DNA of 38,134 bases. Origin: Lentimicrobiaceae bacterium (GTDB lineage: Bacteria > Bacteroidota > Bacteroidia > Bacteroidales > JAGNHN01). The translations under genes were made by a program, and so were the position numbers. The DNA is taken from assembly GCA_018001695.1 (NCBI GenBank), contig JAGNHN010000017.1:1-38134 (forward strand), in the 5' to 3' direction. The notes under the pieces are model-generated. The model worked only from the letters and a program-made list of their open reading frames with translations, did not search any database and was not told where the DNA came from. Below, in pieces: positions 1 to 38,134 of this stretch. Each line of letters begins with the position of its first letter. Positions within the stretch are counted from its first letter, which is position 1.

Positions 1-99
1 CACTGAATGCCCGATATAAAACTTATCAGCTGATGCATTGTACAGGATATAGATATAGTACATCTCTCTGAGCATTGAGAATTCACCACTCTTAAATGC

Positions 100-124
100 A
101 AAAAGCGGCCATCAGCCGCTTTTT
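100..124 (-). terminator. Intrinsic terminator of tRNA-Asn
   Basis: A perfect 10-bp inverted repeat (AAAAAGCGGC, 5-nt loop, GCCGCTTTTT) begins 4 nt past the 3' end of the tRNA-Asn gene in its reading direction and ends in a T run. This is a standard Rho-independent terminator and closes the leftward tRNA transcript. Positions 1-99 beyond it hold nothing I can recognise. Confidence 0.85.
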
Positions 125-128
125 GTCG

Positions 129-202
129 CTCCCCCTGCTGGACTTGAACCAGCGACCCTCTGATTAACAGTCAGATGCTCTAACCAACTGAGCTAAGGAG
201 GA
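129..202 (-). tRNA. tRNA-Asn (anticodon GTT)
   Basis: The minus strand folds into a complete cloverleaf. The 7-bp acceptor stem is TCCTCCT/AGGGGGA (one G-T pair) with discriminator G. The D stem is GCTC/GAGC, the anticodon stem TCTGA/TCAGA around loop CTGTTAA (anticodon GTT, Asn), and the T stem GCTGG/CCAGC around TTCAAGT. The 3' CCA is not encoded. It is the only intact tRNA at this locus. Immediately upstream on its own strand lie eleven degenerate copies of its 5' half, and the nearest good promoter is beyond all of them (1088-1118), so the functional tRNA is probably processed from the 3' end of a roughly 0.95-kb precursor. Confidence 0.97.
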
Positions 203-1071
203 GTATTCCAGTATTTCAATCTCCCTGACCCTCTGATTAATCCCGCAAGTGCGGGACGCTAACCAACTGACCTAAGCAGGAGTATTCCAGTATTTCAATC
301 TCCCTGACCCTCTGATTAATCCCGCACGTGCGGGACTCTAACCAACTGACCTAAGCAGGAGTATTCCAGTATTTCAATCTCCCTGACCCTCTGATTAATC
401 CCGCACGTGCGGGACTCTAACCAACTGAGCTAAGGAGGAGTATTCCAGTATTTCAATCTCCCTGATCCTCTGATTAATCCCGCAAGTGCGGGACTCTAAC
501 CAACTGACCTAAGCAGGAGTATTCCAGTATTTCAATCTCCCTGATCCTCTGATTAATCCCGTACGTACGGGACGCTAACCAACTGACCTAAGCAGGAGTA
601 TTCCAGTATTTCAATCTCCCTGACCCTCTGATTAATCCCGTACGTACGGGACTCTAACCAACTGACCTAAGCAGGAGTATTCCAGTATTTCAATCTCCCT
701 GACCCTCTGATTAATCCCGTACGTACGGGACGCTAACCAACTGACCTAAGCAGGAGTATTCCAGTATTTCAATCTCCCTGACCCTCTGATTAATCCCGTA
801 CGTACGGGACTCTAACCAACTGACCTAAGCAGGAGTATTCCAGTATTTCAATCTCCCTGACCCTCTGATTAATCCCGTACGTACGGGACGCTAACCAACT
901 GACCTAAGCAGGAGTATTCCAGTATTTCAATCTCCCTGACCCTCTGATTAATCCCGCAAGTGCGGGACGCTAACCAACTGACCTAAGCAGGAGTATTCCA
1001 GTATTTCAATCTCCCTGACCCTCTGATTAATCCCGCACGTGCGGGACGCTAACCAACTGAGCTAAGCAGGA
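203..1071 (-). repeat. 11 x 79-bp tandem array of degenerate tRNA-Asn units with palindrome inserts
   Basis: Eleven head-to-tail units of exactly 79 bp, nearly identical, lie directly 5' of tRNA-Asn. Read on the minus strand, each unit carries the tRNA acceptor 5' strand and D arm (TCCTGCTTAGGTCAGTTGG or the tRNA-like TCCTCCTTAGCTCAGTTGG). A 16-nt palindrome-like hairpin, TCCCG[C/T]AC[G/T]T[G/A]CGGGA, replaces the 10 nt CATCTGACTG. The authentic TTAATCAGAGGGTC then resumes (3' part of the anticodon arm and variable loop), followed by about 25 nt unrelated to the T arm. Units therefore lack the first anticodon base, the 5' anticodon stem, the T arm and the 3' acceptor strand, so none can be a normal tRNA. 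Three hairpin versions occur: CCCGCACTTGCGGG, CCCGCACGTGCGGG and CCCGTACGTACGGG, always with a fully paired 6-bp stem. The unit nearest the middle (359-437) keeps the exact tRNA acceptor sequence. There are no unique spacers, so it is not a CRISPR. Confidence 0.95.
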
Positions 1072-1087
1072 ATGCATTAAGCGGATG

Positions 1088-1118
1088 CAAAAGTATAATA
1101 ATTTCTTTATCCAGGCAA
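1088..1118 (-). promoter_or_regulatory. Promoter of the pseudo-tRNA array and tRNA-Asn
   Basis: On the minus strand TTG (1116-1118) is followed after 20 nt by TACTTTTG (1088-1095), matching the Bacteroidota sigma-ABfr consensus TTTG-N19-21-TAnnTTTG. The predicted start is near 1082, about 10 bp before the first array unit, pointing leftward through all eleven units into tRNA-Asn. I see no TAnnTTTG inside a repeat unit, so this is the most likely promoter for the real tRNA. Confidence 0.7.
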
Positions 1119-37710: not shown

Positions 37711-37785
37711 CGGGATGTAGCGCAGTCCGGTTAGCGCGCTTCGTTCGGGACGAAGAGGCCGGAGGTTCGAATCCTCTCATCCCGA
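37711..37785 (+). tRNA. tRNA-Pro (anticodon CGG)
   Basis: A complete cloverleaf. Acceptor stem CGGGATG/CATCCCG with discriminator A; D stem GCGC/GCGC; anticodon stem CTTCG/CGAAG with loop TTCGGGA (anticodon CGG, Pro codon CCG); T stem GGAGG/CCTCT around TTCGAAT. CCA is not encoded. Protein-like open frames crossing it on the minus strand are spurious. It has its own promoter and terminator. Confidence 0.97.
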
Positions 37786-37790
37786 CAACC

Positions 37791-37894: not shown

Positions 37895-38134
37895 GGGATT
37901 TGGTTGAATCCCCCCCACAATGGATCACGCAAGTAATCCTCTCGATTCAGCCCGAACTTGTTCGAGGCTGTAGGATATAAAAAGACCGACCGAGCGAAGC
38001 GAGGAAGGGGATTTGGTTGAATCCCCCCCACAATGGATCACGCAAGTAATCCTCTCGATTCAGCCCGAACTTGTTCGAGGCTGTAGGATATAAAAAGACC
38101 GACCGAGCGAAGCGAGGAAGGGGATTTGGTTGAA
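37895..38134. repeat. 113-bp direct tandem repeat downstream of tRNA-Pro (runs off the window)
   Basis: Two complete, identical 113-bp copies (37895-38007, 38008-38120) and the first 14 bp of a third, cut by the window end, so the total copy number is unknown. Each unit starts with a T-arm-like hairpin (GGGATT-TGGTTG-AATCCC), includes AATCCTCTCGATTCAGCCCGA, resembling the tRNA-Pro 3' end AATCCTCTCATCCCGA, and then the hairpin CGAAC-TT-GTTCG. Open frames over it are not credible genes. Confidence 0.85.

Follow-up and report, generated by a model that had tools for sequence, protein, structure and literature searches.

Palindrome-bearing tRNA copies and a small GIY-YIG nuclease gene form a recurrent module beside tRNA genes in Bacteroidota

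We found that an array of eleven truncated tRNA-Asn copies, located at the start of a contig from a Lentimicrobiaceae bacterium, belongs to a recurrent genetic module which occurs across the Bacteroidota on several tRNA isotypes; sequence comparisons support this well. The order of the module is: a promoter-like element, 0 to n palindrome-bearing tRNA copies, an intact tRNA, a terminator, a small gene for a GIY-YIG nuclease, tRNA copies with 1–3 palindromes, the tRNA 3′ end and, often, a copy of the terminator. By a narrow measure, we lean towards the array being part of a chromosomal homing-endonuclease-like module which parasitises a tRNA gene. A search of a paper library returned no earlier description of this module, the nearest being a paper on the phage nuclease SegB (PMC13096335).

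The tRNA-Asn array and its locus

The window is the whole stretch of 38,134 nucleotides which was analysed (G000:C11:1-38134), and its position 1 is the contig start. The locus is read on the minus strand, in the order promoter-like element, eleven units, tRNA-Asn, terminator-like hairpin and start of the nuclease gene. The promoter-like −7 element TACTTTTG (1088–1095, minus strand) fits TAnnTTTG, which we take to be the Bacteroidota-type −7 consensus; it places the array (203–1071, minus strand) between promoter and tRNA, and the motif was found 5′ of the tRNA in 11 of the 13 array-bearing relatives checked. The intact tRNA-Asn(gtt) follows at 128–202 (minus strand; ARAGORN and Rfam) and is the sole full-length match in the 3.2-Mb assembly; the Rfam scan identified tRNAs only and no other family. 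Between the tRNA and the nuclease gene, a terminator-like hairpin with a T run was recognised by eye at 100–125 (minus strand), a simple terminator scan being negative. The N-terminal 21 codons of the GIY-YIG nuclease gene (MYYIYILYNASADKFYIGHSV) occupy 1–63 (minus strand), where the gene is truncated by the contig start, and a nuclease profile which we built matched the open frame at 1–111 of the minus strand (L067, E = 4.9e−7). The end of contig C16 (L021) contains, oriented to match, the closing codons of a nuclease of this type (ending in RQKSRTLIERLVDPSFIPLGVLQQLVRVPHVRD and a stop codon), with the final residues encoded by another palindrome-bearing tRNA-Asn copy. Judging from the sequence, this frame is the probable continuation and C-terminus of the window nuclease, and the C11 start and the C16 end are therefore probably neighbours.

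An earlier note on this DNA had described eleven 79-bp pseudo-tRNA-Asn units, and we counted exactly eleven units and eleven palindromes as assembled, spaced at 79 bp from position 1071 to position 203. TRF reported a 79-bp period at 180–1071 (11.3 copies, 97% matches, score 1609). The range given for the array, 129–1071, was correct at its upper end but took in the tRNA itself (129–202) at its start. The unit anatomy was as described: each unit keeps tRNA positions 1–25 (acceptor 5′ strand and D arm), has positions 26–35 (CATCTGACTG) swapped for a 16-nt palindrome of the form TCCCG-N6-CGGGA, keeps TTAATCAGAGGGTC (GGATC in some units) after the palindrome and ends in a 24-nt linker, with the T arm missing. 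The hairpin does replace the 5′ half of the anticodon arm, and the array does precede the real tRNA-Asn and share its orientation. Most units have TCCTGCTTAGGTCAG where the tRNA has TCCTCCTTAGCTCAG. The palindromes are TCCCGCAAGTGCGGGA (241–256, 478–493 and 952–967), TCCCGCACGTGCGGGA (320–335, 399–414 and 1031–1046) and TCCCGTACGTACGGGA (557–572, 636–651, 715–730, 794–809 and 873–888), with the cores CACGTG (n = 3), CAAGTG (n = 3) and TACGTA (n = 5); to pass from CACGTG to TACGTA requires a change on both palindrome arms. As the units differ from each other by single bases, the array is not one copy multiplied by the assembler, and these SNPs, together with the presence of the module in isolates and single-contig genomes, rule out an assembly artefact.

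As RNA, a window unit has a predicted fold of −26.5 kcal/mol (z = −2.8), a single long hairpin in which the palindrome stem is lengthened by pairing between GGTTA in the D arm and TTAATCA; the same long hairpin was predicted for the Asn units of several species. The cores of 23 distinct Asn palindrome inserts covary (score 0.26 vs 0.06 shuffled, 0/500) and purines are frequent in the linkers which separate Asn units (0.76 vs 0.49). Spacer sequence showed no conservation between species, and restoration of the acceptor stem from the linker was not significant (mean z = −0.54, median p = 0.33).

At the other end of the window, 113-bp tandem repeats with palindromic parts begin approximately 100 bp past tRNA-Pro(cgg) (37711–37786); they occupy 37895–38134 and continue beyond the window end (L208, 896–1390). 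They are followed there by 130-bp repeats with GGACTCCCGCCAGGGAGTCC (L208, 1463–1904 and 1923–2369; approximately 38.5–39.4 kb of the contig), adjoining an ORF which by eye, without a profile, resembles an IS200/REP-associated transposase.

Recurrence in the genus, order and phylum

Within the genus, the ortholog of the array-adjacent gene in G001 also adjoins a tRNA-Asn locus, where a minus-strand tRNA-Asn is broken by palindromes in its T loop and anticodon arm, the nuclease survives as a degenerate remnant and the opposite strand has a functional tRNA-Asn. The broken tRNA and degenerate nuclease point to turnover within the genus. The earlier note had proposed a search of related genomes for the unit; when the order was searched for a D arm with a TCCCG palindrome after it, 44 of 295 genomes matched, with approximately 100 matches vs 17 for a reversed control. 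This speaks against a chance pattern, and the absence from related genomes which the note had named as a refuting outcome is contradicted. The matches were often tandem (periods of 61–124 bp) and units were seen beside tRNA-Asn, -Val, -Met and -Lys. When loci were found by palindromes only, 14 of the 18 with a called tRNA had a GIY-YIG frame in cis; the four without were L057, L068, L075 and L070, the last of which is truncated by the contig end.

A search with the nuclease alignment identified relatives at 80 named loci, nearly all from Bacteroidota and a few from MAGs labelled Chlorobiota or Neomarinimicrobiota, with close relatives in records named Bacteroidales. In this phylum-wide set, which was chosen by nuclease similarity, an intact tRNA was found < 700 bp upstream on the same strand at 64 of the 67 GIY-YIG loci with ≥ 400 bp of upstream sequence. 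These tRNAs were mostly Asn, followed by Ala, Val and Met, with single cases of Leu, Gly and Ser. TCCCG-type palindromes were present upstream at 28 of 63 loci, downstream at 45 of 59 and on either side at 58 of 66. Related arrays were seen in cultured isolates and in genomes consisting of a single contig, including Indibacter (L093), Pedobacter agri (L086), Flavobacterium LPB0248 (L144) and G425. The reading of the earlier note was borne out for the pseudo-tRNA units and the tRNA-Asn array, but it had overlooked the GIY-YIG gene behind the tRNA, the tRNA copies downstream, the same substitution in other isotypes and the spread through the phylum. Its ideas of RNA decoys, a source of small RNAs or a dosage buffer may hold, the array being placed between promoter-like element and tRNA and having a stable predicted fold.

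The nuclease, its tRNA and the palindromes

The nuclease is encoded by a stand-alone ORF of approximately 80–100 codons behind the tRNA and terminator, and not within an intron or intein. The GIY-YIG catalytic domain (PF01541) was detected in all 8 nucleases tested, the alignment contains invariant Y, G, R, H and E columns, and the nearest solved structures are UPF0213 proteins and SLX1; NCBIfam and PADLOC gave only weak, non-specific matches. Purifying selection acts on the nuclease, as judged from dN/dS: of the 10 pairs with measurable dS, 9 gave 0.04–0.20 and one gave 0.39. Its stop codon often lies inside the downstream tRNA copy, after which the local terminator is often repeated. No relative was found on IMG/VR viral contigs using an alignment-derived pattern and tblastn, and a single-protein query of plasmids gave one weak match only. 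In the genome of the window, two near-identical GIY-YIG genes were also seen in approximately 500-bp tandem repeats with other palindromes and no tRNA nearby (L038 1440–2330, G000:C87), perhaps a related pairing of palindrome and nuclease.

A tree of 65 nucleases required 7 changes of tRNA isotype (minimum 5; shuffled mean 18.3, 0/200 as low) and 16 of host class; the tree is built from 88 columns and many of its forks are without resolution. In this tree, nuclease clades track tRNA isotype and not host class. Occupied and empty sites could be compared at tRNA-Val, which follows folC in most of the 30 loci fetched for the G425 family. By profile search the nuclease was present at 2 of the 30 (G425 and L207) and absent from the rest; palindrome copies were found beside tRNA-Val solely in G425, L207 having the nuclease without units, and the nuclease-free loci had neither tRNA copies nor palindromes beside the tRNA. 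In G425, two units lie between the conserved promoter and tRNA-Val; in place of the 17-nt anticodon arm they carry TCCCGATTTTATCGGGA or a version of 18 nt, and the tRNA is followed by a terminator, the nuclease and a copy with two palindromes. The kept parts of these units match the tRNA of G425 itself, which argues that they were made locally; module copies in general agree with the host's own tRNA. The tRNA-Val of G425 is identical to that of three genomes without a nuclease at the locus, so no co-conversion was seen. We also considered co-transfer of the tRNA with the nuclease, which is unsupported, as tRNA sequence did not track nuclease carriage.

The module can itself be found in tandem. 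G399 contains tandem units of nuclease and tRNA piece in 4 and 10 copies; the latter (L168, G399:C9 905.3–911.8 kb) are 457-bp modules downstream of tRNA-Met, each with a GIY-YIG gene, a tRNA 3′ fragment and a terminator, TCCCG palindromes being absent. Two or more intact tRNA copies are retained at L113, L116, L117, L120, L086 and L125.

Around the nuclease, the density of TCCCG palindromes is 1.44 per kb, 32 times that in the flanks of the same loci (0.044 per kb). In a BLAST search made with no regard to palindromes, we located 110 inserts of ≥ 12 nt between collinear tRNA pieces, 95 of them with TCCCG-type ends. The mean stem arm of the inserts was 6.8 (3.2 shuffled), and stems of ≥ 6 pairs were present in 89% of inserts and 1.5% of shuffles. 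The inserts occupy fixed tRNA positions, in most copies the anticodon arm: Asn copies have lost positions 26–35 to a 16-nt insert in dozens of species, and Ala and Met copies have the whole anticodon arm (28–44) replaced. Gly copies carry inserts in the D loop, anticodon loop and T arm, and Marinifilaceae copies in the variable region. Dispersed TCCCGA..TCGGGA palindromes (TCCCGATAATTATCGGGA-like) were counted in G013 (42 vs 2 control) and G014 (25 vs 1 control). In the genome of the window, TCCCGC..GCGGGA hairpins occur at sites inside the 23S rRNA, and the rRNA spacer contains a palindrome-bearing tRNA-like sequence after tRNA-Ala (L047 1040–1110, G000:C96). Repeats of approximately 246 bp with TCCCGGGTTTCCGGGA-like sequence were also found within genes (L043 and L045, G000:C19 and C33); these are probably unrelated repeats of surface protein genes.

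Proposed mechanism and alternatives

The module has the appearance of a selfish element settled on an essential gene. We suggest that the nuclease would recognise its own tRNA gene, probably near the anticodon arm, which is the most isotype-specific part, and that cutting and recombinational repair would spread the module and duplicate tRNA and module in tandem, as with phage SegB. Copies with an overwritten anticodon arm could be neither recut nor used as tRNAs, and such copies would therefore accumulate. Upstream copies would have to shed the terminator, because otherwise the essential tRNA would be silenced, leaving only 5′ parts upstream of the tRNA and 3′ parts downstream; nuclease expression behind the terminator is assumed to be low. 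This model accounts for the clades which follow isotype, the local origin of the copies, the tandem growth and the loss of the terminator upstream. It leaves unexplained where the palindrome comes from, why its TCCCG ends are conserved and why the linkers are rich in purines, the last of which would not be expected from pure DNA scars. It should also be noted that an intact tRNA remains beside the nuclease, so that an occupied locus should still be cut, which counts against the model. The four palindrome-bearing tRNA loci where the profile gave no nuclease in cis, one of them truncated, also weigh against it. Overwriting is not obligatory, given the intact duplicate tRNAs at several loci, and no vector was found, relatives being absent from the viral contigs and represented on plasmids by the one weak match.

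SegB is a free-standing GIY-YIG homing endonuclease in the tRNA cluster of phages T4 and T6; it cuts within tRNA genes at the motif RAWTSGAAC, and the tandem amplification of its tRNA locus depends on its nuclease activity (PMC13096335). In our own reading, the motif corresponds to the T-loop complement. The module likewise has a small GIY-YIG enzyme beside tRNA genes and tandem amplification of a tRNA locus, and it shares with free-standing GIY-YIG homing endonucleases the catalytic domain, the free-standing gene and presence or absence at a conserved site (folC–tRNA-Val). Unlike SegB, it is chromosomal, with one module per tRNA, clades by isotype and palindromes in place of tRNA arms; phage carriage, which is typical of SegB and not obligatory for homing endonucleases, found no counterpart in IMG/VR. 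REP/REPIN sequences and their RAYTs similarly tie short palindromes to a small DNA-processing enzyme, but RAYT is a Y1 tyrosine transposase and not a GIY-YIG enzyme, and the palindromes of the module have TCCCG/CGGGA ends and sit at fixed positions of tRNA copies. The repeats at E. coli tyrT are tandem tRNA fragments at a tRNA locus, but these are 3′ fragments downstream of the tRNA, whereas the window units are 5′ fragments upstream with an arm substituted and a nuclease gene present. Integrative elements at tRNA genes also duplicate the tRNA 3′ part beyond the inserted DNA (att duplications); the insert here is one nuclease gene of approximately 0.3 kb and no integrase was seen.

An alternative which we regard as unlikely is that the copies are transcribed as tRNA-like hairpin RNAs which bind or decoy the nuclease or govern read-through into its gene. 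The array is preceded by the promoter-like element and followed by the tRNA, terminator and nuclease gene, a layout similar to type III toxin-antitoxin systems such as ToxIN, in which a repeat array is followed by a terminator and a nuclease gene, and the stable predicted fold, the long hairpin common to Asn units of several species, the covarying cores and the purine-rich linkers all favour such RNAs. However, 35 of the 63 nuclease-carrying loci have no upstream copies, whereas the array of a type III system is always upstream of the toxin gene; the spacers are not conserved between species; and DNA palindromes self-correct, so that pairing can persist without RNA function. The module also differs from ToxIN in that its units are tRNA pieces, an intact tRNA is interposed and the nuclease is of another family; to our knowledge GIY-YIG is not a type III toxin family.

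The recurrence of the same tRNA positions in many species, the 32-fold concentration at the nuclease, the empty tRNA-Val loci without palindromes and the isotype-tracking clades all speak against passive scarring, in which dispersed TCCCG palindromes, moved by another enzyme, would enter dispensable tRNA copies, slippage would grow the arrays and the nuclease would be a bystander. We consider this improbable, although the abundant dispersed palindromes of G013 and G014, the hairpins within the 23S rRNA of the window's genome and the IS200-like ORF among palindromic repeats just beyond the window are in its favour. Slippage alone with no function, as the earlier note had allowed, does not account for the recurring tRNA positions, the linked nuclease and the palindrome-free empty loci. 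We give very little credence to regulation useful to the host, with copies tuning tRNA-Asn supply or titrating tRNA-processing enzymes and the nuclease domesticated: copy number varies from 0 to 11 among genomes and most related genomes have no copies, against which can be set the strong purifying selection on the nuclease, the sole full tRNA-Asn gene and the leader of approximately 870 nt which must be transcribed to reach tRNA-Asn if the promoter-like element is the only promoter.

Returning to the homing-like module, we hold it as a tentative possibility, somewhat doubtful as yet, that an isotype-specific nuclease and transcribed arm-substituted copies act jointly, with the copies serving as the module's immunity or control device, in the form of uncuttable DNA and/or a restraining tRNA-like RNA. 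If true, this would be an arrangement of DNA and RNA unlike known homing, toxin-antitoxin or REP systems.

Annotators should be aware that many of these 'GIY-YIG nuclease' ORFs end in a translated tRNA copy (..AQLVRVPHVRD). Our results suggest that small nuclease modules which prefer particular isotypes have colonised essential tRNA genes throughout a major bacterial phylum. The module provides a naturally occurring collection of tRNA genes in which a single arm has been precisely exchanged, through which the life of a nuclease beside an indispensable target, the origin of tandem tRNA arrays and the source of a widespread Bacteroidota palindrome can be tested.
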